Position numbers and translations under genes: made by a program | The notes under the pieces: model-generated | Told to the model about the DNA's origin: nothing | Database searches by the model: none | Seen by the model: the letters and a program-made list of their open reading frames with translations, nothing else | Shown: piece by piece, positions 49,124 through 63,983 of the stretch | Layout: every line of letters begins with the position of its first letter | Position numbering within the stretch: position 1 is the first letter of the stretch | From: Patescibacteria group bacterium | GTDB lineage: Bacteria; Patescibacteriota; Saccharimonadia; Saccharimonadales; UBA4665 | Reading direction: 5' to 3' | Length of the DNA stretch: 64,000 nt | Assembly: GCA_030272735.1 (NCBI GenBank) | Contig: JARXKL010000002.1 | Location: forward strand, 1-64,000

Positions 49124-50035
49124 CTATAACAAGTCGGTCAGCATCATCATACCTTTGTTTAACAAATGCTGCGCATATTCGGGTTCAGTATCGAATCGAT
49201 TGTATGCAGACAAGCCATACTGAAGCGATGCACCTAGATTTAGTTGGAATGTGCGTGAATAGTCACTTAACCCAAGTTCTTCTCCTAAACCGTCCTCTAC
49301 TTCTGCATAGGCCGACGCAGCTTTCAGTGAACCGGGTAGATCGTAAATTACAGTCGAGAGTGTTTTAAACTGAGAAATATTTATCATACATGCACCTCTA
49401 TATACTGGTTGCTCCCATGGATCGATAAATAATATATTGTTATTTTTAAAAAATAAATTATCAGGAGTAAAATCTGCGATGAAGCAAGCCGACCTATCAC
49501 CATACGCGCCTTCGAATGATATTTTGTTTAAAGCACGCAAGCCAGCTTGAGCATTCATGCCTTTATGTAACGCCATGGTAAAGTATTTTTTTGTTTCTTC
49601 TGCAACGTATTGTAGCGACCGCTGATTAAAGTTTTCAATGTCAGCAGAAATAGATTTTCGGAATAGTGTATGCATGCTTGCAAGTGCACTAGTGAAGTCT
49701 AGAGTACCGGCTTTGGATGACTCGCTTACATTATTTCCTAAATCCGTAAGTAATAAATACAGAAAGTCATCTACTTCACCGTGGACATAGTAGGGGATAA
49801 TATCTGCAGCCCCTGCGCTGGCAATACCTCTATAGCCGGCAATATTATTTTGTATTTCTTTACGCGCAAGTGGCTCACTACCAATTTTTATAACTTTGCT
49901 GCCGCCTATACGATCTTTGCATCTGTATATAAATGCACCTGTATGGCCGCATGACATAGTCTCAACGTCGGATAACTCATGTATAATTGCTATCTCGGCT
50001 AAGGCTTTATAAATTTTTGAATCTATATTCATCAT
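49124..50035 (-). CDS. APH-fold kinase-like protein
   Basis: The protein follows the aminoglycoside phosphotransferase/choline kinase fold: a N-lobe with KVIKIGSEPLARKEIQ (Lys), the hinge LYLLLTDLG, a catalytic loop IADFTPDNLFFKN (Asp and Asn, with the usual His-Gly replaced) and the metal Asp in ILFIDPW. Small-molecule phosphorylation is the likely reaction. It follows the HAD/LOG genes on the same strand after a 206-nt gap that shows no gene. Confidence 0.75.
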   Translation of the reverse strand: MMNIDSKIYKALAEIAIIHELSDVETMSCGHTGAFIYRCKDRIGGSKVIKIGSEPLARKEIQNNIAGYRGIASAGAADIIPYYVHGEVDDFLYLLLTDLGNNVSESSKAGTLDFTSALASMHTLFRKSISADIENFNQRSLQYVAEETKKYFTMALHKGMNAQAGLRALNKISFEGAYGDRSACFIADFTPDNLFFKNNNILFIDPWEQPVYRGACMINISQFKTLSTVIYDLPGSLKAASAYAEVEDGLGEELGLSDYSRTFQLNLGASLQYGLSAYNRFDTEPEYAQHLLNKGMMMLTDLL

Positions 50036-50241
50036 TTAGCAGAGGGTTATACTTAACATTAAATGTGTAACGAGTTTACTCATCAAACTTTTCGACACGT
50101 CCATATAGACTTTTATTATTTTTCTTAATATCACTCCCGGAATTACTAATGGCACTGTAGCACAGCTTTCTGTAAGTAATATGCAAAAGATTATAAGTAT
50201 TCATTACATAATGATATAGCGCATATCGAGAAGCTAGGCAA

Positions 50242-51108
50242 TTATTTTATAAATTGCAGTAGCTCATGGACCCCTTCAGTGTACCGGGCCTTTGCAACAT
50301 GCTTTGCTGCATGCTTGGCCATTTGTTCGGCATTATTTGGCGCAAGAAAAGTACCAAAACCATCAACCATTTCAAAGTCATTCAGTTCGTCGCCGATGAC
50401 ATATATTTGATCATACATCTTAATCTCACGCAGCTTTTGTAATGCTGTGCGTTTAGAAATAAAATTCGAATGCATCAAAATATTTCCAAATGCCTGTGAA
50501 TAATTCACCGTGCAATTTATAGGTAATGATGGGTGGTTGCTTAAAAGTTCGGCAACTTTAGACACCTGTTCAGTCATGGAAATTAATCTGGTCGCTTTAC
50601 TTTGTTTTAGATGGGCACTGACAGTGTACTGACGATACTTATTATTGAGAACTACGATTGAGTCTTCCTCGAACATACTAGATTGATGATGAGATATGGC
50701 TTCCACAGTATTTTCATCTATCCAATGCACTACTGTGTTGGGGAACTGTTCTTGAAGAACTGCGTATAATAATTTTTCGGCGTTTTCCTTAATTGACTCC
50801 ACTTCGCCGAGCATTTCTTTTGGCAATAAATAACCTGTGCTATTTGTTGTAGGATCATAAACAAATATACCATTTTCGCCAATCAGTGGGCCCGTAATAT
50901 TAAATTGCTGCGCAACAGGTAAAAGATCATGCAATGCCCGGTTTGAGTTTATGCAGAAAGACACGCCCAATGCGGACAGACGAGTAATTTCGCTTGTAAG
51001 ATCTGGATAGTTACTCTGATACTCCTCGTCTAGTAGGGTGCCATCAATATCAAGCACCACTAGTGATTTTGTCGTAACTGAAACAGGCTTTTTACTTGAA
51101 TTGGGCAC
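50242..51108 (-). CDS. HAD-family phosphatase (Cof-like), first paralogue
   Basis: Motif I is LDIDGTLLDEEY, motif II is FCINSNRA, and motif IV is YVIGDELNDFEM with the acidic pair. A type IIB cap is inserted between motifs II and III. Cof-type enzymes dephosphorylate sugar phosphates or nucleotides. Its start overlaps the LOG-like gene by 17 nt. It resembles the HAD gene at 55279 in the motif I surroundings (DGTL-x-DE-x-Y). Confidence 0.88.
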   Translation of the reverse strand: MPNSSKKPVSVTTKSLVVLDIDGTLLDEEYQSNYPDLTSEITRLSALGVSFCINSNRALHDLLPVAQQFNITGPLIGENGIFVYDPTTNSTGYLLPKEMLGEVESIKENAEKLLYAVLQEQFPNTVVHWIDENTVEAISHHQSSMFEEDSIVVLNNKYRQYTVSAHLKQSKATRLISMTEQVSKVAELLSNHPSLPINCTVNYSQAFGNILMHSNFISKRTALQKLREIKMYDQIYVIGDELNDFEMVDGFGTFLAPNNAEQMAKHAAKHVAKARYTEGVHELLQFIK

Positions 51109-51649
51109 GATAAATCTCGCCTTCCCGAAATGCTATTTCAACAGCATCTTCCGGCGTCTTAGCTCCGTGAGTTAACGTTCGTTCTCTCGCATCAATATAT
51201 GTATCGGCTAATTTATCTGCCCAGCCACCATAACCCGTCAACACCACAGTTGGAATATTAGCTTGATAGGCAATCGCTAGCTCTGTAAGCGTACCGGATC
51301 CTCCACTAATCGCAATGACTGCATCACAACCGGTAACTAGTACTGTCTCTCTACCGCCGCCACGCTCTAATCCACAAGGTATAATAATATCCGCATTTTT
51401 TTGCCATATATCTTTACCCTTACCGTAGGTAATCCCTACCGTCAGTCCGCCCGCACTTTGCGCACCACGACAGGCAGCGGTTGATAACGAGTCGTAATCT
51501 TTCTCGGCTCCAAAAAAGAGTATGCCTTGTCTTTCGGCTATCAGACGACCTATGCTTTCAGCGGCAGCTTCAAAGTCTTTAGTGTAATGTAAGTCTGCTG
51601 CAGAACCCATCACACCGATTTGTAGTCGTGTTTTTTTCTGTACATCCAT
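51092..51649 (-). CDS. LOG/TIGR00725-like nucleotide-binding protein
   Basis: This Rossmann-fold protein has the lysine-decarboxylase-like (LOG) signature: GGGRETVLVTGCDAVIAISG followed by GSGTLTELAIAY. The first part has IGVMGSAAD. LOG enzymes cleave nucleoside monophosphates to base and ribose 5-phosphate. The frame is open to 51763, but ATG 51649 has AGGAG at a 5-nt distance and gives 185 residues. The longer version would read through a terminator hairpin. Confidence 0.85.
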   Translation of the reverse strand: MDVQKKTRLQIGVMGSAADLHYTKDFEAAAESIGRLIAERQGILFFGAEKDYDSLSTAACRGAQSAGGLTVGITYGKGKDIWQKNADIIIPCGLERGGGRETVLVTGCDAVIAISGGSGTLTELAIAYQANIPTVVLTGYGGWADKLADTYIDARERTLTHGAKTPEDAVEIAFREGEIYRAQFK

Positions 51650-51687
51650 GTGAGCTCCTATACATATGAGTTTATATATTAATAAGC

Positions 51688-51849
51688 AAAAAAAGACCCA
51701 AAGAGGGTCTTTTCTCATAACATACCATTTAAGAGAGACCGACTCCACGTATTTTCGCGACAACGGCTGACTTACTTAACGGTTAGACTCCCGTAGTGCA
51801 TTTTGGCACTCAGCTTGCTCCGGCGTGACTGGAACTCAAACGCTTTATA
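51688..51849 (-). ncRNA. Candidate structured RNA gene
   Basis: A gap of 238 nt carries a complete small transcription unit: a consensus promoter, about 135 nt of foldable sequence and a strong terminator (AAAAGACCC-TCTTT-GGGTCTTTT, 51713-51691, then T run). Inside, AGTGC/GCACT form a hairpin with a CAAAAT loop, and ACCGTTAAG pairs with CTTAAATGGT (one bulge). It matches none of the RNA families I can recognise (tmRNA, SRP, RNase P, T-box). It could instead be an attenuating leader of the LOG-like gene. Confidence 0.55.
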
Positions 51850-51855
51850 ACTTTC

Positions 51856-51885
51856 AGTATAGCCGAAGTGAGCTTCAAACGTCAA
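51856..51885 (-). promoter_or_regulatory. Promoter of the candidate RNA/LOG-HAD unit
   Basis: TTGACG (51885-51880), an 18-nt spacer and TATACT (51861-51856), directly after the phosphoribosyltransferase stop codon. A start near 51849 is predicted. Confidence 0.75.
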
Positions 51886-51887
51886 AT

Positions 51888-52898
51888 TCAACGCTGGTCA
51901 ATTTGCGCCAAATAGTCGGTGACTCTAGTATCAAGAGCTGGAAACTTAGTGGAACCGAGTGGAAGTGGTATGCTAGTACGCTGCCGTGTATTTAGAAGTT
52001 TACCAATTGTAATATCTTCTTTAGGATTTAACTTAACAATAGTTTCAAACAAATTTCTCGTAAGCTCAATGCATTTACGTGACACTTCACTAGTCTTATC
52101 GTGCGGGATAGTCGCCCACTCAGCTGTAGGGCCATATGGCTGAATGTATGGTGTTGCATACGATGATCTATTTTCGTCATAAAATGGATACGGCTGATCA
52201 TCGAATATGACACCGAGTACTTTTCCGCAACCAGGCACAAATGGAATGAAATCGTGATCAGGAATCCAGTCTTTAACATTTGTAAACTTTTCTGTAGTAA
52301 CTAAATCGTATTTAGTATGCTTCAACCAGCTAAGACTTGTACCTTTACAGTCAAAGCCTACAACGACTGCTTTTGTTTCGTGGCCGTGTTCTTGGAGTTT
52401 ATTAACGCTATGGCGTATGGTTGAGCCAGTAAAAATTCCGTCCTCAACAATAACCACGTCTTTTCCGCGTAGTTGTTTTTCCTGGCTATCTATTTGAACA
52501 TCAAGAGACGGATGACCTGGTCGTGGTCCAATGCCAATAGCCCTACCTTTGGTGTCGAAAATACGATTGATCTGTAAATGAGCCCCGTCTATTGGAGAAA
52601 ATATTTCCGGGCAGGTACTCACTACAACTGGATTTTCTAAACCTAAATCTTTAACCTTTCTATGTGCTGCTCCAAGCACACTATCAGCTAGGTCGCGCAT
52701 GTGAACTGGGATAACTTTCGTCTCTGGCATTGCCTGCTGCAATACACTTGCCAGTTCACTTTGTAAATCGCGAGTATAGTCATCTAACGGGCCGGGCGCA
52801 TCTATGCCGATGTGTATCAGAGACTTTAATTTTTCACCCAAATCCATAGTTAGAATATAGGTTGATTCTTCGCTTACATGGGGTGCTTGCTCAGCCAT
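51888..52898 (-). CDS. Type I phosphoribosyltransferase-like protein (paralogue 1)
   Basis: The PRPP-binding loop is VVIVEDGIFTGSTI (acidic pair Glu152-Asp153, then T-G-S-T). A GPRPG turn precedes it. The C-terminal extension contains TPYIQPYGPTAEWATIP, which is shared with the 54305 gene product (APYLEPFGSTSWASIP) but not with ordinary phosphoribosyltransferases that I know. It likely transfers PRPP to a base or acts as a regulator. It lies 55 nt after hisS. Confidence 0.82.
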   Translation of the reverse strand: MAEQAPHVSEESTYILTMDLGEKLKSLIHIGIDAPGPLDDYTRDLQSELASVLQQAMPETKVIPVHMRDLADSVLGAAHRKVKDLGLENPVVVSTCPEIFSPIDGAHLQINRIFDTKGRAIGIGPRPGHPSLDVQIDSQEKQLRGKDVVIVEDGIFTGSTIRHSVNKLQEHGHETKAVVVGFDCKGTSLSWLKHTKYDLVTTEKFTNVKDWIPDHDFIPFVPGCGKVLGVIFDDQPYPFYDENRSSYATPYIQPYGPTAEWATIPHDKTSEVSRKCIELTRNLFETIVKLNPKEDITIGKLLNTRQRTSIPLPLGSTKFPALDTRVTDYLAQIDQR

Positions 52899-52953
52899 AA
52901 ATACTCATTTCTTAGATAAACATTCTTATACTTGATATTATTGGGTATATTTC

Positions 52954-54294
52954 TCAATCGGTCAAATTTGTTTTCAAAGCATTAGCTTTAAGTTGTGCAA
53001 TGTATGTCGGCAGCTCATCAATTGCAATCTCTAACTGCTGACCTGATGCCAATGTTTTAAGAACGGCCACCCCTTTTTCTGCCTCATCAGGTCCGATAAG
53101 TACGACATATGGAATGTTCATTCGATTAGCGAAGCTTAGCTGTTTTTTTAGTTTTACGTCTTCGTAATAAACTTCAGAAGCAATTCCTGCTTGCCTCAAT
53201 TCACGTGCAACCCGTACATAATTAGGAGCATCATTTGAATCGAAGTTAGTTACTAGTACTTCGGTAGTAGTTTTGAATTCTTTTACTCGACCGAGCTTTT
53301 TCAAACCTTCTAAGAGGCGATCTACTCCGATAGATGTTCCTACAGCAGGTAAGCTTGGGCCTCCAAGGGATTCCACCAAATTATCGAAACGGCCCCCGCT
53401 ACATACACTGCCTAACTCTTCGGCACCCTTCAAGGTGGTCTCGTAAATAACTCCGGTGTAGTAACTCAGTCCCCTAGCAATGCTTTGATCGAAAACGACC
53501 TGGTCTTCTGTATAACCAGATGACTGCAGCATACTGAATATCTCTGTCAAATTATCTGCGCCTATGGTAGTTGAATCACTTCCACCGAGGAGTTCTCGTA
53601 TTTTGGCTAACTTATCTAAAGGAGCACCATCAACTGACAAATAATCGCTGACCAACTGCCCCGTCGTTTCTCCAAAACCTTCCGATATTTCAGCTACAAC
53701 CGCATTCTTTCCGATTTTGTCGACTTTATCGATAGTACTTATAATTTTCATTGCGTCAGCACGCTCTGTGTAGCCTGCTTTTTCTGCTAAGGCATCTAAC
53801 AAGCTACGGTTATTTACTCGTATTACAGATTCTGCGCCTAAGGCCGTCATGGTATCCGACATCATACCTATAACTTCTGCATCGGCGATAGAACTCGTGG
53901 TACCGACAATGTCGGCATCAAACTGTGTGAATTCTCTATATCTGCCAGCTTGAGGGCTTTCGCCTCGCCATACTTCGCCGACTGCATACCTTTTATATGG
54001 CATGGGAAGTCGACTTCCATACTGAGCAACGACACGAGCCAAAGGAACGGTCTGGTCATAGCGCATTGCAACATCACGCCCACCATTATCCTTGAACTTA
54101 TACATTAAACTTTCGCCCTCGTCGCCGTATTTACCAGTGAGCGTCGATAGACGCTCTAGAGCTGGGGTTTTGAGTGGTACGAAGCCGTAACTCTCATATA
54201 CTCCCTGAATAGTTCCGATCATGCCATTTCTGGCAATCATTTCTTCTGCGAGCATGTCGCGGAATCCTGACATTGGTCCTTGTTCTGCTGCCAT
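52954..54294 (-). CDS. hisS: Histidyl-tRNA synthetase
   Basis: This is a full class II synthetase. Motif 2 lies in KRYAVGEVWRGESPQAGRYREF, the histidine-specific loop is ARGLSYYTGVIYET, and motif 3 is VGTSIGVDRLL. A complete C-terminal anticodon-binding domain follows (about 345-446). It is therefore not a HisZ regulatory paralogue. ATG 54294 has AGGAG 6 nt upstream; the TTG at 54300 is not preferred. It lies between two paralogous phosphoribosyltransferase genes. Confidence 0.96.
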   Translation of the reverse strand: MAAEQGPMSGFRDMLAEEMIARNGMIGTIQGVYESYGFVPLKTPALERLSTLTGKYGDEGESLMYKFKDNGGRDVAMRYDQTVPLARVVAQYGSRLPMPYKRYAVGEVWRGESPQAGRYREFTQFDADIVGTTSSIADAEVIGMMSDTMTALGAESVIRVNNRSLLDALAEKAGYTERADAMKIISTIDKVDKIGKNAVVAEISEGFGETTGQLVSDYLSVDGAPLDKLAKIRELLGGSDSTTIGADNLTEIFSMLQSSGYTEDQVVFDQSIARGLSYYTGVIYETTLKGAEELGSVCSGGRFDNLVESLGGPSLPAVGTSIGVDRLLEGLKKLGRVKEFKTTTEVLVTNFDSNDAPNYVRVARELRQAGIASEVYYEDVKLKKQLSFANRMNIPYVVLIGPDEAEKGVAVLKTLASGQQLEIAIDELPTYIAQLKANALKTNLTD

Positions 54295-54304
54295 AATCAA
54301 CTCC

Positions 54305-55219
54305 TTATACGGTCTCTAATAAAATTTCTTGCAAAGCTTTTGTAATTGAAGGGGCTTTTTGCAGGGCTCTAACCGGACGAGGAATTTTATCGCCGGGAAT
54401 CGTAAATCCATTTAAACGTTCAATTTCTTTCCAGTAGCGATACGAAAGGTCGGTGCAGACCTTGCTAAATTGCTCTGACTTATCTTCTGGAATACTAGCC
54501 CAGCTTGTTGAGCCAAACGGCTCAAGGTATGGAGCGCTCCACCATGTACCCCCATCTTTCAATACTGTACGGCCAGATAATGGAGCACCTAGGATAAAGT
54601 CACGCTCACATACTTCATCGTATACTTCGTCGTATTCTTTTACGCAATCTATCTCTACGCCAAGCGTTCGGAGCAAGTTTATGCCGCTACCTACACCTAT
54701 TCCAACTATTACTTTTTCAACTGGGCGATTCACTTCCTCAAGCATCTCAGCTACTGCCTTAAGTCCTGCGCCCGAAAATAAAACGTCATCTACCAAACAA
54801 ACAGGTTCACGAGATTTAGCAGAAAGTGCTCCTATCTGGGAGGCAATATCTAACGCTCCAGGTCGTGGACTCAGCCCAAGCCCTCTGTACCCCAATATGG
54901 GACTGAAATCTTCCGTAACTGCCCGAGTGAACTCTATGTGTGAGGCATTATCGTCGTCAGTAATATAAGCCCTGTCTAAGGATATTATTGGCAAATGAGT
55001 ACCTTTGAGCTTTTGGTGCATTCCCTTACTAATATCGTCAGCGGAAACAATTTCTATCTCGCAGTCCGTTGCTTTAGCAAGTTCATCTGCTAATACACTA
55101 TGGTGTAGCTCGTAATATTCTGGCTGGGGAGTGATAATGCCCTCAGATTTCCCCCATCGATTAGTGACCGCTTCCAGATCTGCAGAGACTACATACAGTT
55201 GCTTAGTACCTTCAGGCAT
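54305..55219 (-). CDS. Type I phosphoribosyltransferase-like protein (paralogue 2)
   Basis: The loop is VCLVDDVLFSGAGLKAV (Asp144-Asp145), preceded by LSPRPGALD. The C-terminal signature APYLEPFGSTSWASIP, with an EDKS segment and a Cys, matches the 51888 product. It starts with a strong GGAGGA ribosome binding site and lies 10 nt upstream of hisS, so the pair is one transcript. The reaction is not known. Confidence 0.82.
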   Translation of the reverse strand: MPEGTKQLYVVSADLEAVTNRWGKSEGIITPQPEYYELHHSVLADELAKATDCEIEIVSADDISKGMHQKLKGTHLPIISLDRAYITDDDNASHIEFTRAVTEDFSPILGYRGLGLSPRPGALDIASQIGALSAKSREPVCLVDDVLFSGAGLKAVAEMLEEVNRPVEKVIVGIGVGSGINLLRTLGVEIDCVKEYDEVYDEVCERDFILGAPLSGRTVLKDGGTWWSAPYLEPFGSTSWASIPEDKSEQFSKVCTDLSYRYWKEIERLNGFTIPGDKIPRPVRALQKAPSITKALQEILLETV

Positions 55220-55244
55220 TCGTTCCTCCAGAGTTGATAGCCAA

Positions 55245-55272
55245 ATCGTAGCATATAACTTGAATATTGCAA
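55245..55272 (-). promoter_or_regulatory. Promoter of the phosphoribosyltransferase-hisS transcript
   Basis: TTGCAA (55272-55267), a 16-nt spacer ending in TGC and TACGAT (55250-55245) make an extended -10 promoter between the HAD and phosphoribosyltransferase genes. Confidence 0.65.
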
Positions 55273-55278
55273 GTGAAA

Positions 55279-56115
55279 TTACTGTTCACGTGCAGTTATT
55301 CCTGATAGTCCTTTCAAGATTGACTGCACACCTAACGTATATTTCAGTGGATCGCTATAGTCTGCAACGGCTTTGAATTCTTCATCAGCATTGCCTACAC
55401 TGTAGTGGTTGGCTACATCATGACCCAGGAAATCGGCCATGCTATTCCCTATCATCGCTATTTTCCCTAACCTTAATTTACTAAGTAAACTCCTGGTACC
55501 AGTCCGCTTATCTACGTCTCTACAAGTTGCTATAACCAGTCCGTAGTCATAGTTCAAATCCTCACTCGTATCCAAATCTACAGGGTAGCAATCTCGTATA
55601 CTGTCTATCTGCGATTCTAATAAATTGTTGTCTACTACAATTACTCCATTAGCCGTAACTCTCCTCGCAAAAATACCGAGGCTACAAAGACGCTGATCAC
55701 TCACCATCATCACAGCCTCACCGGGCTCCGCTATAGATTTTTTTTGAGTTATAGCTTCTACCGGATTTCCATACCAGACTTTAATTGACTGCTTGTTAAA
55801 GTATTCGCCGATTTTTTCTCGTGCAACTGCATAACTTTCGGCACGATGCCTGCTGTACTCTAACACTCCGTTGATAGCCACCACCGCGCCACGTTCAGCA
55901 AGTATAGGTCCATTCATGTTAAATTTTTCATGCCACGATTTCAAAGCTTCATACGGTGTGTCTGAGCTTAAACCTATCGTCCAGCCGGCAGATTGAGCGG
56001 CTGTAACGGTATCTATTAGGTCGTTACTGTTTTGGTTATAAGTTTCGTCTACAAGCGTTCCATCTAGGTCAATTAAAGCGAAGTGAGAATCAGGTTTTGG
56101 AAATGTTTCACTCAT
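55279..56115 (-). CDS. HAD-family phosphatase, second paralogue
   Basis: Motif I is LIDLDGTLVDETY, followed by GLSSDTP (motif II) and IAMIGNSMADFLG (motif IV, with fewer acidic residues than usual). The overall plan with a Cof-type cap matches the 50242 product. It is the most upstream gene of the cluster and lies 72 nt from the direct repeat that bounds the redox cassette. Its substrate may be a nucleotide or sugar phosphate. Confidence 0.82.
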   Translation of the reverse strand: MSETFPKPDSHFALIDLDGTLVDETYNQNSNDLIDTVTAAQSAGWTIGLSSDTPYEALKSWHEKFNMNGPILAERGAVVAINGVLEYSRHRAESYAVAREKIGEYFNKQSIKVWYGNPVEAITQKKSIAEPGEAVMMVSDQRLCSLGIFARRVTANGVIVVDNNLLESQIDSIRDCYPVDLDTSEDLNYDYGLVIATCRDVDKRTGTRSLLSKLRLGKIAMIGNSMADFLGHDVANHYSVGNADEEFKAVADYSDPLKYTLGVQSILKGLSGITAREQ

Positions 56116-58756: not shown

Positions 58757-59128
58757 TTATGCTAAGGCTTGTTTGATATAGTCCGCGAGTTGATGCGGGG
58801 CCATGCTCGATTTAAGGATGTGGGCATGGACACCGCGCTCTATGAGTCGCTGGACGGTTTCACGGTCGGATAAATTGCTATAAATTATTATTTTAGTTTT
58901 CTTGTGCTTATTTAATATATCGGACTTGTCCAAAAAGCCTTCACCACCTAATATTGGCATGAGCATGTCGAGCAGTATTAAATCGGGCATATCTCGTTCG
59001 ATCTGTTCTATTGCCTGCTCACCATCGCTCGCCGTCATTACTTCATAACCATGACGATTGAGCACCATTGCATAGGCATCACGGAGTATGGATTCGTCTT
59101 CTACAATTAGTACTTTTTTATTTAACAT
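58757..59128 (-). CDS. Single-domain response regulator of the kai operon
   Basis: This is a CheY-like receiver of 123 residues with no output domain. The acidic pocket is VEDES, the phospho-acceptor is Asp54 (LILLDMLMP), and the Thr/Ser-Lys end includes HILKSS. It overlaps the kinase gene by 7 nt. It probably receives phosphate from that kinase and signals by protein contact. Confidence 0.93.
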   Translation of the reverse strand: MLNKKVLIVEDESILRDAYAMVLNRHGYEVMTASDGEQAIEQIERDMPDLILLDMLMPILGGEGFLDKSDILNKHKKTKIIIYSNLSDRETVQRLIERGVHAHILKSSMAPHQLADYIKQALA

Positions 59129-60330
59129 GACCGTAATTTGATAATAAATGTGGACCCTGAATCAAGTTCAGACGTAAGTATAATTTCGCCGCCGTGCAGC
59201 TCAACTATTTTCTTTACCCAATATAATCCGAGCCCGCTACCTGAAACTGTATCTGACAAAGCGTTATTAACGCGCGTGAATTTTTCGAATATTTTTGCTT
59301 GGTCTTCTTCGTGAATACCTACGCCGTTATCTGTTATCGCAACGTAAGCATGCTTAGGGTCTTTGTATATCTTGATACTTATTTTGCCGCCTACAGACGA
59401 GTATTTGCTGGCGTTCTCAATCAGATTAGAAATGACCAAGCTTATTTCCATGGGTTCAATCAGCGCGCAAACTTTTGGCTCAAACTCACATGTTATGGTC
59501 TGGTTGCGCATGGCTACTATTGGCTCGAAAGCTTTAAGGCTTTCCGATACTAGGTCGGCTAGATTTTTTTTGATGATTTTTAGCTGATACCCGCCGAAGT
59601 CAATTTGCGCAGTTTTGAGAATGCTATTGATAATTGCTAATTGTCGTTCATTGCTATCGAATGCTGTTTGAGCAAAAGTGCGTTGGCTTTCTGTCAACGT
59701 GCCGGCGTAACCTTCGAGTAGCATGCCGATATATTGTTTTACACCTGTCGCAGGTGTGCGCAACTGGTGCGAGGCCAGTGCGATAAATTCGTCCTTGGCA
59801 GTTTCGGCCCGTTTACGCTCTGTAATGTCCGTTACTACAAGGCAAATAAAAGCATTATCGCCATTGCTGGGTAACTTGCGAGCCGAGAATATGACCTCCT
59901 TTTGATGTGGGCCTTTGAGCCGTACGGTACGCTCAGATCCATTCACATTGGCTGAGCGTTGTTGTAAAATTTCTGCGACCAATCTGGCATCGTCTGGATC
60001 TACAAAAGCTGCAATTTTCTGCCCAATCACATGCTCTAGTGGCGTTGCAGTCATCCTGCTGAATTGTTCGTTGCTATAGAGTATTATTCCCTCTTCTGAA
60101 ATTGTGAGCGCCCCTTGGCTCATCGACTCAATAAGAACACGGTAGGTGTAATCGGCAGATTTGAGCGTATATATCTGCTGCCCAACCTGCGGGTTTTTCG
60201 TTACCAGCGCATCTACTGAACCGTCACGAATTGCATCGAGTGTGTCTTCTGCCTCCTGCAGCCGCGCTTCTAAATCTGCTATTTCAGCTTCAGTGTATTC
60301 ACGTTTAGCTCGGTTGGCCGTCATTTTCAT
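59122..60330 (-). CDS. Soluble PAS-domain histidine kinase of the kai operon
   Basis: Order of domains: N-terminal coiled coil (about 12-37), PAS (about 60-170, ending VVTDITERKRAE), HisKA with ASHQLRTPATG (His188), and HATPase_c with NLIENASKYS, DNGVGI and GSGLGLY. No membrane helix is present, so it senses an intracellular signal. Unlike SasA it has no KaiB-like N-terminal domain. It overlaps the upstream kaiB gene by 4 nt. Confidence 0.93.
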   Translation of the reverse strand: MKMTANRAKREYTEAEIADLEARLQEAEDTLDAIRDGSVDALVTKNPQVGQQIYTLKSADYTYRVLIESMSQGALTISEEGIILYSNEQFSRMTATPLEHVIGQKIAAFVDPDDARLVAEILQQRSANVNGSERTVRLKGPHQKEVIFSARKLPSNGDNAFICLVVTDITERKRAETAKDEFIALASHQLRTPATGVKQYIGMLLEGYAGTLTESQRTFAQTAFDSNERQLAIINSILKTAQIDFGGYQLKIIKKNLADLVSESLKAFEPIVAMRNQTITCEFEPKVCALIEPMEISLVISNLIENASKYSSVGGKISIKIYKDPKHAYVAITDNGVGIHEEDQAKIFEKFTRVNNALSDTVSGSGLGLYWVKKIVELHGGEIILTSELDSGSTFIIKLRSC

Positions 60331-60632
60331 TTCGTAGCCTTTTGCACATTCAGGACCGTCAAAATCTTTTCAGTATCGGACATATCACCAACAATGCGTC
60401 GCACGGGGTAAGGCTGGGTTTTGATGAGTGTCGGTGCGGCTATTATCTGCTTTTCTTTGGCTAAATAAGGCTGCTGGTAGACATCAATAATATCGAGGTC
60501 ATAACTATTTTCCAAATATTCCTCGCACAGTTTTTGTATGTTCCTGACGGCTTGCATGGAGTGATGGGTGGCGCCTGTTATATATAAGCGCAGCACTATC
60601 TTCTCATCTGCGAGCGAGGAATCATTGCTCAT
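60327..60632 (-). CDS. KaiB-like protein, second copy (divergent)
   Basis: A thioredoxin-like KaiB domain of 101 residues: [60 protein letters not shown]. The family core is retained but is more divergent than in the adjacent copy, notably at the end of the domain (ILTVLNV instead of VLxGLDL). It overlaps both neighbours by 4 nt. Confidence 0.9.
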
Positions 60633-60916
60633 GACCGCTCTCGTAAATCGAGCCCTACGAGCACACGTTCTTCATTAGATAAGTCGCCTATAATTTTACG
60701 GATAGGTACAGGGACTCGCCGCACTAGCGTCGGCACTGCCAAAATTTGGTCGCCTTCTGCAAGCTGTGGGTTAGCCAGTAAATCGATAATTTCAATACTA
60801 TACCGGTCTTTTACGTTCTCCTCACAATATCGTTTGAGATTCTCTAGGGCCGTTTTAGACCGTTGCGTTTCGCCGGCTATATACAGTCGTAACTCAAATT
60901 CTTTATGTTCAGCCAC
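60629..60916 (-). CDS. kaiB: KaiB, first copy
   Basis: This 95-residue KaiB closely follows the clock protein: [71 protein letters not shown]. KaiB is a fold-switching protein that binds the KaiC CI ring. Its start lies within the end of kaiC (8 nt overlap), so the ratio of KaiC to KaiB is likely fixed by coupled translation. Confidence 0.95.
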
Positions 60917-62615
60917 TTTGTTTACCGCCCCTTGAAACCTTGAATGCGGCTTTGTCTATGCTGTCGTGCGCACCGCGTTCTTCTTCATTAGCGTTACTAT
61001 TTTCGGTCTCGGTATCTTGTACGGCTAACTCTGCCTTAAGGCTTTCAATCTGCGCCAATATAAGCAGACGCTTGTGCTCGAGCTTACGTTCGGCCGTTCC
61101 CATCTGGTTTTTGCGTACGAGCTCAGCCGACTTATAGCGAGCTTCGGCCGCAACACGAGCTGAGCCTGTCAACATTCCTTCTGGACCAAGATAGACATCA
61201 ACAAGGTTTATACCGTTATCGCTAATTATGAACTCGCGTACTTGGTTTGAGTGATGCGTCCCACGAGATTTTAATACGTACATCAATCGGTTACGCTCGC
61301 CATTAACTTCAAAATCACGCAGTAAAAGCCAAGTATCGGCGAACGACGACACGCTATTTTCGGTTTGCTCTAAGTTTTCGTGGCCCTGTGTTAACGATGT
61401 CATCATGGCCGTAATATTTTCTGCCTTAAGCATGTCCATCATACGGCTCAACATATTTTGGGCATCGCGCACGTTGCTTGAGCTGGCAAGCGTTGTAATA
61501 GGATCGATAACAACAACTTCGGGCTTAAACTTTTGGATTACTTTATACAAAGAAGCCAGGTGCATTTCGAGCCCTTGGGACGCCGCTCGCACAGCACGGA
61601 ATTGTAGCAGGTCCTGCTTAATGTAGGGGTTAAGGTTTATGCCAATTGACTGCAGGTTGCGCGTAATTTGCTGCGGCGATTCTTCGAAAGCCACATATAA
61701 GCATTTAGCACCAGTTTTGCAGGTGGCGTCCGCTAAATAACCCGATACATTCGTTTTGCCGGTGCCAGAACTGCCTGAAACTAAAATACTAGAGCCTTTA
61801 TAGAACCCTCCGCCGAGCATGACATCAAGCTGCTCAATGCCTGAAGAAATGCGTTCTTTTGAGACCGGGTGGTTTAAGTTTAATGACGTTACCGGCATTA
61901 CAGTAATGCCATCTTCGTCAATTAAGAATGGATATTCGTTGGTACCGTGCGTTGAGCCGCGATACTTAACAACGCGTAAACGCCTGGTTGAAATTTGGTC
62001 TTCTATACGATGGTCGAGCAAAATAACACAATCTGAAACGTATTCTTCGAGACCTTGGCGTGTCAGAGACGTGTCGCCACGCTCGCCAGTAATAATTGCT
62101 GTCATTCCCTTGTCCTTGAGCCACTGAAATAAGCGGCGCAGTTCGGCGCGCAGTATCGCCTGATTCGTAAAACCAGAAAATAACGATTCAAGCGTATCTA
62201 ATACAATCCGCTTTGCGCCTATCGAATCAATGGCATAACCCAGGCGTATAAACAAACCTTCTAAGTCGTACTCACCGGCTTCTTCAATTTCACTGCGTTC
62301 GACAATAACTTGGTCAATGCGCAGTTTACCCTTTGCCACAAAGTCGTCCAAATCGTAGCCGAGCGATGCTACATTCAGCACTAAATCTTTGGCGCTTTCT
62401 TCGAAACTAATAAATACGCCGGGTTCGTTACATTCAGTAATTCCTTTTATAAGAAACTCCATGGCCAGTAGCGTTTTACCGCAACCTGCGTTTCCAGCTA
62501 TGAGCGTTGGGCGACCTTTTGGAAAGCCTCCCTCTGTTATTTCATCAAGGCCGTTTATTCCGGTAGGAGCTTTTTCAAGGCTAACGAGCACTTGCTCTTT
62601 GTGGACTTTCACCAT
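60909..62615 (-). CDS. kaiC: KaiC, double-domain clock-type ATPase/kinase
   Basis: Two RecA-like domains are complete. CI has GNAGCGKT (41-48) and the catalytic pair Glu72-Glu73. CII has GSSGTGKT (281-288) and Glu311-Glu312. The phosphorylation region reads [12 protein letters not shown] (417-428), so the positions of Thr426, Ser431 and Thr432 of cyanobacterial KaiC are Thr418, Ser423 and Ser424. The C terminus has [16 protein letters not shown] and a long charged coiled-coil extension (about 490-568). AGGAG lies 8 nt before the ATG. It is the first gene of a five-gene operon. Confidence 0.95.
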
Positions 62616-63359: not shown

Positions 63360-63983
63360 TTATTTTGCTCGCGGAATGAAGCCCCAACCATCTGCGCAAT
63401 ACCCAACGTTTTCGCATTCTTCTGGGTCATATGTCGGTAGTGGTTCGTTAATTATTGCGCGGTAAGCTATGCCCGAATCAAGTAATTTTTGCAATTTTGA
63501 CTGACGTTGCCATGTTAATACGACCTCAACTTCCTGAGCCCCAGCAGCCAGTGCATGTCGAGCGACTTGCACAGAATTCGAGCCCGTTGTACCAACATCT
63601 TCAAGAACTACTACCAGTTCCGGCTGCATAGCGGTGATAAGTTTACCTGCCATCTCGCTTAAATAGAGCTTCTTAGAATTTTCTGGATCTTTTTCGCTGA
63701 CTGCTCCTATTACATCGCCGTTGAAGTGCCGCGCGGTATCGATTGCTACTCTATTTGTACCATTCGCAACTCCCAAAATTATTTGGGGCAGCTCAGAATA
63801 CTCCTCCGAAATATAATCAGCTGCTACAGTTGTCCATTCTTCGTACAACGGCGATCCAATTGCGATCTTATCGAAATCGAGCTTGCGACCATGCATACCA
63901 CTTACAAATTCGTGATGCGTGCCTTCAGGGTCTAAAACCCCTGCTTCAAGTACGTGGTTTCTGAATGATTCGACGTCTGCCAT
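63360..63983 (-). CDS. Orotate-phosphoribosyltransferase-like protein
   Basis: The PRPP loop is VVVLEDVGTTGSNSV and the fold order matches PyrE-type enzymes. The end has PEECENVGYCADGWGF with two Cys. A strong AGGAG lies 11 nt upstream of the ATG. It is shorter than, and not obviously paralogous to, the two phosphoribosyltransferases of the hisS cluster, but adds a third such gene nearby. Pyrimidine salvage or synthesis is plausible. Confidence 0.85.
   Translation of the reverse strand: MADVESFRNHVLEAGVLDPEGTHHEFVSGMHGRKLDFDKIAIGSPLYEEWTTVAADYISEEYSELPQIILGVANGTNRVAIDTARHFNGDVIGAVSEKDPENSKKLYLSEMAGKLITAMQPELVVVLEDVGTTGSNSVQVARHALAAGAQEVEVVLTWQRQSKLQKLLDSGIAYRAIINEPLPTYDPEECENVGYCADGWGFIPRAK

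Follow-up and report, generated by a model that had tools for sequence, protein, structure and literature searches.

Gene clusters in which a T-box controls an accessory aminoacyl-tRNA synthetase are known. One described case comes from Lactobacillus parabuchneri, whose histidine decarboxylase island contains an accessory hisS gene that lies under a His (CAC) T-box and is expressed in dependence on the histidine concentration (PMC5313534); T-boxes specific for His normally control histidine supply genes (PMC9413887). Here we describe a gene cluster that appears to be a variant of this kind in a 64,000-nucleotide (nt) stretch of DNA, hereafter called the window, from a Patescibacteria group bacterium (assembly GCA_030272735.1, contig JARXKL010000002.1, positions 1 to 64,000 of the forward strand). 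The two loci have in common an accessory hisS in a patchy gene cluster and a His (CAC) T-box, which in our case is that of relatives. However, ours has no decarboxylase or transporter and instead encodes phosphoribosyltransferases, a LOG-type protein, HAD phosphatases and a putative kinase, and its control region precedes hisG or LOG rather than standing directly before hisS. The gene combination and the presence of a His-type T-box in Saccharimonadia appear to be new, as we found no description of this combination in open-access papers and none of T-boxes in Saccharibacteria in the open-access literature. The reading that we favour, and to which we give about an even chance, is that the cluster responds to histidine shortage by combining an accessory histidyl-tRNA synthetase (HisRS) with enzymes that process phosphoribosyl pyrophosphate (PRPP) and N-glycosides.

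The window belongs to a Saccharimonadia (TM7) bin of 841 kb that is 93% complete (G000), from a small bacterium of the parasitic type (Saccharibacteria), and our searches of this genome covered 805 of the 841 kb. Relatives were surveyed in 393 genomes of the class Saccharimonadia; among those discussed below, G014 represents another genus of the same family and G155 a different family. The cluster comprises seven co-directional genes on the minus strand, from position 56115 down to 49124, an arrangement given by the earlier note on this DNA and confirmed by open reading frame positions and family scans. From the first gene to the last, the intergenic gaps are 59, 10, 55, 238, -17 and 206 nt, and because of these sizes HAD1-PRT1-hisS-PRT2 and LOG-HAD2 look like operons. 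The features are, in order of transcription:

55279..56115, minus strand: HAD1, Cof-type HAD-IIB phosphatase of 278 residues (PF08282, E=1.8e-10)
54305..55219, minus strand: PRT1, divergent protein of 304 residues with a predicted PRPP-dependent phosphoribosyltransferase fold (PRPP motif, AlphaFold2 model, Foldseek)
52954..54294, minus strand: hisS2, second histidyl-tRNA synthetase (TIGR00442, PF03129)
51888..52898, minus strand: PRT2, PRT1 paralogue of 336 residues (identity to PRT1, Pribosyltran match)
51856..51885, minus strand: sigma-70-like promoter TTGACG-N18-TATACT, immediately 5' of the leader (motif scan)
51736..51849, minus strand: conserved leader RNA, corresponding to the 5' half of a T-box-like element and comprising a short Stem I and Stem II (similarity, model R1)
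51687..51717, minus strand: intrinsic-terminator-like hairpin AAAAGACCCTCTTTGGGTCTTTTTTT, at the position of the T-box antisequestrator of relatives (scan, alignment with relatives)
51092..51649, minus strand: LOG-type SLOG protein (LDcluster4, PF18306), with a corrected start
50242..51108, minus strand: HAD2, Cof-type HAD-IIB phosphatase of 288 residues (PF08282, E=1.9e-26), overlapping LOG by 17 nt
49124..50035, minus strand: APH-like putative small-molecule kinase of 303 residues (motifs DFTPDN and FIDPW)

The hisS gene had been named as such in the earlier note, which did not recognise it as a second copy. Its probable start is corrected to the ATG at 54294. The product scores 387.5 bits against TIGR00442 (cut-off 286.75), carries the anticodon-binding domain PF03129 and has HisRS proteins as its top PDB matches, and an alignment shows that the class II motifs and the HisA motif are retained. 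The other hisS gene of G000, at C13, encodes a protein 30% identical to hisS2. G014 and G155 likewise have two full hisS genes each; between the two cluster copies in G000 and G014 the identity is 63%, as opposed to 26-35% with the other HisRS proteins compared. We considered whether hisS2 might be HisZ, the HisS-like subunit of the short-form ATP phosphoribosyltransferase HisG-HisZ, since a HisS-like protein stands beside HisG in relatives. This was rejected, with 183.8 bits against TIGR00443 (cut-off 271.65) and the anticodon domain present. Unlike HisZ, the cluster protein scores as a complete hisS product, and G000 has no hisG. Because the class II and HisA motifs and the anticodon domain are kept, the cluster hisS reads as HisRS, and the sequence shows hisS2 to be complete and different from the housekeeping HisRS.

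The 238-nt gap 5' of LOG holds the promoter and a structured leader RNA. The earlier note had proposed an RNA here, which is borne out by its fold (z = -3.0) and by its conservation in five relatives. A 216-nt query of the leader matched G014 and G017, and a local search then added G211, G368 and G155. The 5' half is 79-89% identical in these genomes, that of the window scoring 127 bits with model R1, and the element lies directly upstream of hisG in all five relatives; no additional good copy was found in the sequenced part of G000. In each of the six genomes a similar promoter precedes the element by 6-25 nt, the number of matches in the promoter scan of the window being not above chance. 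In the proposed leader structure 97.8% of cells are paired, as compared with 35-42% in controls with slid partners, and 15 base pairs show compensatory changes on both sides. The Stem I loop reads AGUCACGCC, i.e., the histidine codon CAC followed by a purine, and CAC-G is found in the loop of the covarying Stem I in six of six genomes, the match to the tRNA being made by inspection only. The tRNA-His of G000 has a GTG anticodon and a 3' end ...CCCCA, hence C73, which match CAC and UGGG, respectively.

In the five relatives, the hisG leaders run on into AAGGATGGGACCGCGG...CTCGTTCCTT, with the AAGGATGGGACCGCGG motif present in each of them. Helices 8 and 9 of this T-box half are 100% paired, and a T-box sequence with a UGGN bulge in an antisequestrator helix was found in all five. 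When the 3' part is folded alone, CCUUAG pairs with CUAAGG in the Shine-Dalgarno region, clearly so in four of the five cases. The Rfam T-box model (RF00230) matches three of the five leaders weakly (E=2.5e-4 for G014, 7.5e-5 for G017 and 0.022 for the third). These leaders resemble the translational T-boxes with an ultrashort Stem I of RF00230, known from actinobacterial ileS, in their short Stem I with codon and purine (CAC-G), their Stem III, the 5'-edge UGGN bulge next to helix A1 and the sequestered Shine-Dalgarno sequence. They differ from the known ones by their His specificity, their occurrence in Saccharimonadia upstream of hisG-LOG and their Rfam scores below the gathering cut-off, and the window copy further differs in being devoid of the T-box half. 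Based on sequence and covariation, the leaders of the relatives thus appear to be translational-type T-boxes for tRNA-His. An Rfam search of the window RNA itself, with matches accepted up to E=10, gave nothing above chance level, and its T-box assignment follows from the leaders of the relatives; as its 5' half is kept and the T-box half is replaced by the terminator-like hairpin, we regard it as T-box-derived. Neither model R1 nor a motif search found a leader or T-box before other hisS-hisG loci. One T-box motif match, in locus L061, was set aside, as it appears to be coding sequence.

The gene set recurs beyond G000. PRT1 is present in 5 and LOG in 11 of the 393 genomes, and all five PRT1 genomes carry LOG, a co-occurrence with a hypergeometric probability of 6e-9, or 6e-6 when counted by genus, kinship among these related genomes being considered up to genus only. 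HAD1, PRT1, hisS and LOG are kept together in G014 and G155, with hisG added in both and hisI also in G155. The order in G014, all in one direction, is hisG-LOG-pfkB-HAD1-PRT1-hisS-unknown-thiF, and that in G155 is hisG-hisI-LOG-hisS-HAD2-APH-HAD1-PRT1, with two opposite-strand genes in the gaps. PRT-LOG-hisS is found in G242, with LOG about 20 nt from hisS, and overlapping LOG-hisS genes in G175; in G278 LOG overlaps hisS, and an overlapping upstream gene has a PRT-like motif and no Pfam match. PRT and LOG are convergent in G197, hisG-LOG occurs in G017, G211 and G368, and in G080 LOG is alone, beside proS. Taken together, the arrangement of the cluster is beyond chance. The refuting condition set in the earlier note, that the genes be neighbours in no relative, does not hold, as they adjoin one another in G014, G155, G242 and others, and synteny in unrelated Saccharimonadia genera supports a recurrent nucleotide-processing set.

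This distribution also bears on the simplest alternative, an ordinary nucleotide salvage island with hisS as an incidental neighbour. The proteins do belong to known superfamilies with plausible salvage roles. However, LOG is near hisS in 6 of its 11 genomes (P about 1e-7, with kinship beyond genus again left aside) and lies a short distance from hisG in each of the five genomes that have both, a T-box-type leader is shared, and PRT and LOG are both very rare and not housekeeping genes, which makes an incidental association very unlikely. As an observation in its own right, two conserved opposite-strand genes surround hisI/hisG in G155 (locus L020, 14245-15210 and 16190-16945) and G211 (locus L047, 6737-7447 and 7826-8911); one of the pair codes for an unknown protein, the other for a further LDcluster4 protein.

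No histidine biosynthesis genes were found in the 805 kb of G000 covered. hisA and hisF were found in none of the five PRT genomes (hisB, hisC, hisH and hisE were not directly searched in G155), and a search of nearly all of G014 turned up hisG, hisD and a gene for a HisB-type phosphatase but no other his gene. Since hisA/hisF and other his genes are absent, the set cannot serve ordinary histidine synthesis here, and a full pathway was rejected. A related idea is that the set is a remnant of, or an alternative to, that pathway, with novel enzymes standing in for the missing steps. The hisG, hisI, hisD and HisB-type phosphatase genes that flank the set in relatives fit this idea, as does the usual role of His T-boxes in controlling histidine supply genes. 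Nevertheless, we find it highly improbable, given that no PRT genome has hisA/hisF, that G014 retains only three candidate genes and G000 none, and that no protein of the set looks like an enzyme for imidazole ring formation.

Across the 393 genomes, hisG is present in 23, only 2 of which have true hisA/hisF. Orphan hisG genes are frequent neighbours of the housekeeping hisS, and in some cases of hisD or hisI (loci L054-L066 and others), in genomes without hisA/hisF. A separate locus in G140 (L048, 8300-12963) reads hisS-hisG-hisH-hisA-hisF-hisI-hisE, with no hisB, hisC or hisD at the locus; this run would end at imidazole glycerol phosphate and aminoimidazole carboxamide ribonucleotide (AICAR).

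PRT1 and PRT2 had been described as paralogous phosphoribosyltransferases, and they are 28% identical (E=1.1e-15). Their Pfam Pribosyltran scores, 14.5 and 25.9 bits, respectively, are below the cut-off of 26.3. The PRPP motif is intact in both, and the sequence LVDDVLFSG is conserved across the family as VDDVxFSG. The AlphaFold2 model of PRT1 has a mean confidence (pLDDT) of 83.9, and its top Foldseek matches are APRT and OPRT, with a probability of 1.00 and template modelling (TM) scores of only about 0.3-0.5. Because of the motif, the paralogy and a model with phosphoribosyltransferase neighbours, we assign both proteins to this family: by PRPP-binding motif and predicted fold they are type I phosphoribosyltransferases, albeit without reaching the Pfam cut-off.

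The probable start of LOG is the ATG at 51649 instead of the TTG at 51763. The protein scores 99.7 bits against PF18306 (cut-off 26.3), which places it among LDcluster4 SLOG proteins, in agreement with the LOG-like label of the earlier note. It reaches 20.9 bits with the cytokinin phosphoribohydrolase model NF058542, below the cut-off of 300. Its PDB relatives are 1rcu, a molybdenum cofactor (MoCo) carrier protein and LOG. It shares with SLOG/LOG proteins (LDcluster4, TIGR00725, LOG phosphoribohydrolases and MoCo carriers) the fold family, GGSGTLTE and conserved Arg/Glu positions, but differs from LOG proteins in falling under the LOG equivalog cut-off and in its linkage to hisS/hisG. With 67-77% identity across several genera and families, it is better conserved than the other cluster proteins. 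The LOG gene of G017, after hisG (locus L050, 9269-9670), has an in-frame TAG and a shortened frame and is probably decaying.

Pairs of a phosphoribosyltransferase-fold protein and an SLOG protein are known from RqlH/RqlI and ShosTA, RqlI being an SLOG-type partner of a genotoxic phosphoribosyltransferase with MoCo-carrier/DprA homology (PMC4670107). PRT-LOG could accordingly be a toxin-antitoxin-like pair lying beside hisS, in which the SLOG partner would restrain a phosphoribosyltransferase toxin. In a defence-system scan, a region of PRT1 near the PRPP loop matched ShosT weakly (E=4e-4), the PDB matches of LOG include MoCo carrier proteins, and PRT-LOG recurs in two Clostridia bins, with no further instance among 247 genomes of that family. 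The ShosT match spans only 41 residues, and the scan yielded neither a full-length ShosT/RqlH-like phosphoribosyltransferase with a DprA-like partner nor a PADLOC match for LOG, its only other hits being E1-E2-like matches for the ThiF protein of G014. Unlike those systems, the cluster has no helicase and no helix-turn-helix protein, its LOG belongs to another SLOG family and is not DprA-like overall, and its neighbours are different. LOG also occurs without PRT beside hisG or hisS, and such a pair would leave the His T-box control, the HADs and the kinase unexplained, so we hold this proposal to be decidedly unlikely. No PRT1 homologues were found in phages and plasmids.

In the two Clostridia bins (loci L018, 9565-10510, and L019, 8330-9275), the PRT homologue consists of two overlapping frames that require a +1 shift just 5' of the PRPP motif. 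The two loci are 72% identical in DNA; in both halves the differences are biased to third positions of the frame of that half, and a stretch of about 31 nt surrounding the first stop shows no difference. This split gene is a candidate for programmed frameshifting.

The two HAD phosphatases proposed earlier match PF08282. HAD1 of G014 is 46% identical to that of the window and adjoins PRT1; G155 also has HAD1, with HAD2 in the same operon. By contrast, the APH fold assigned to the last gene in the earlier note gained no support: searches of Pfam, NCBIfam and PDB sequences with the 49124-50035 product gave no match, and its structural model (pLDDT 48.5) was too poor for a fold search. Its resemblance to APH kinases lies in the motifs DFTPDN...FIDPW, which it shares with its G155 homologue, at 30% identity. 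In G014 (locus L009, 11318-13117), the hisS gene of the T-box operon is immediately followed by a gene for an unknown 182-residue protein and by a ThiF/E1-like gene.

A divergent second hisS within such a cluster might instead be a resistant copy, in a module whose enzymes make or detoxify a nucleoside or nucleotide inhibitor of HisRS and whose genes are induced by lost charging. The nucleotide-tailoring enzymes, the possible APH-type kinase, the ThiF/E1-like gene after hisS and the patchy distribution are all consistent with an antibiotic or toxin of this sort. Yet the hisG and hisI genes of the operon do not fit, PRT-LOG of G242 adjoins the only hisS copy of that genome, and no transporter or peptide precursor was seen; we therefore consider an inhibitor module unlikely.

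The histidine-shortage reading can be extended, tentatively and with appreciably less than even confidence, to an undescribed Saccharimonadia pathway that acts on a histidine-linked nucleotide through phosphoribosyltransferases (or an orphan HisG) and a LOG-type hydrolase, that uncharged tRNA-His switches on through a translational T-box specific for His, and that is coupled to an accessory HisRS. In the favoured reading itself, when charged tRNA-His is low, uncharged tRNA-His would bind the T-box, free the Shine-Dalgarno sequence and turn the operon on. HisRS2 would maintain tRNA-His charging, while PRT1 and PRT2, with HisG in relatives, would make phosphoribosyl N-glycosides from PRPP. LOG would hydrolyse such N-glycosidic linkages, while HADs and kinase would set the phosphorylation state, such that a histidine-tied nucleotide pool is recycled or remodelled. 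We infer the order and chemistry of the enzymes, and the parts concerning regulation and synteny are read from sequence. The window retains the 5', anticodon-reading half of the leader before LOG-HAD2-APH. With the T-box half gone, control there, if it persists, must differ, for instance through the terminator.

Several observations weigh against the histidine-shortage reading. In the window itself the T-box half is missing, with a terminator-like hairpin in its place, and HisG is absent from G000. The three Rfam matches in relatives score 26.9, 35.7 and 26.1 bits against a gathering cut-off of 93, and model R1 found no leader in G242, G175, G278 and G197, which have LOG or PRT. The hisS gene beside PRT-LOG in G242 is that genome's only copy, the set occurs in only five to eleven genomes, which makes for small statistics, and there is no known substrate for PRT, LOG or the kinase. 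On the other hand, the suggestion in the earlier note that hisS links the set to histidine or tRNA status has strong indirect support from the tRNA-His-type T-box of the relatives. The note's idea of salvage tied to histidine is partly supported, with salvage or a modified nucleoside as the function remaining conjectural. The note had missed that the RNA is T-box-derived and that hisG and hisI join the set in relatives, and the APH fold that it assigned is putative.

Elsewhere in the window, positions 58757-62615 encode KaiC, two KaiB proteins, a PAS histidine kinase and a response regulator in series, a KaiBC-type clock-like operon in a Saccharibacterium, with kaiA not evident. An additional phosphoribosyltransferase-like gene lies outside the cluster at 63360-63983 (PF00156, 19.1 bits, under the cut-off).

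If our reading is correct, tRNA-sensing T-boxes would extend to Patescibacteria, and a PRT-LOG nucleotide pathway would be tied to the charging of a single tRNA. It would also bear on why orphan hisG genes are kept beside hisS in bacteria unable to make histidine, and it would provide a defined switch for studying amino-acid shortage in host-dependent ultrasmall bacteria.

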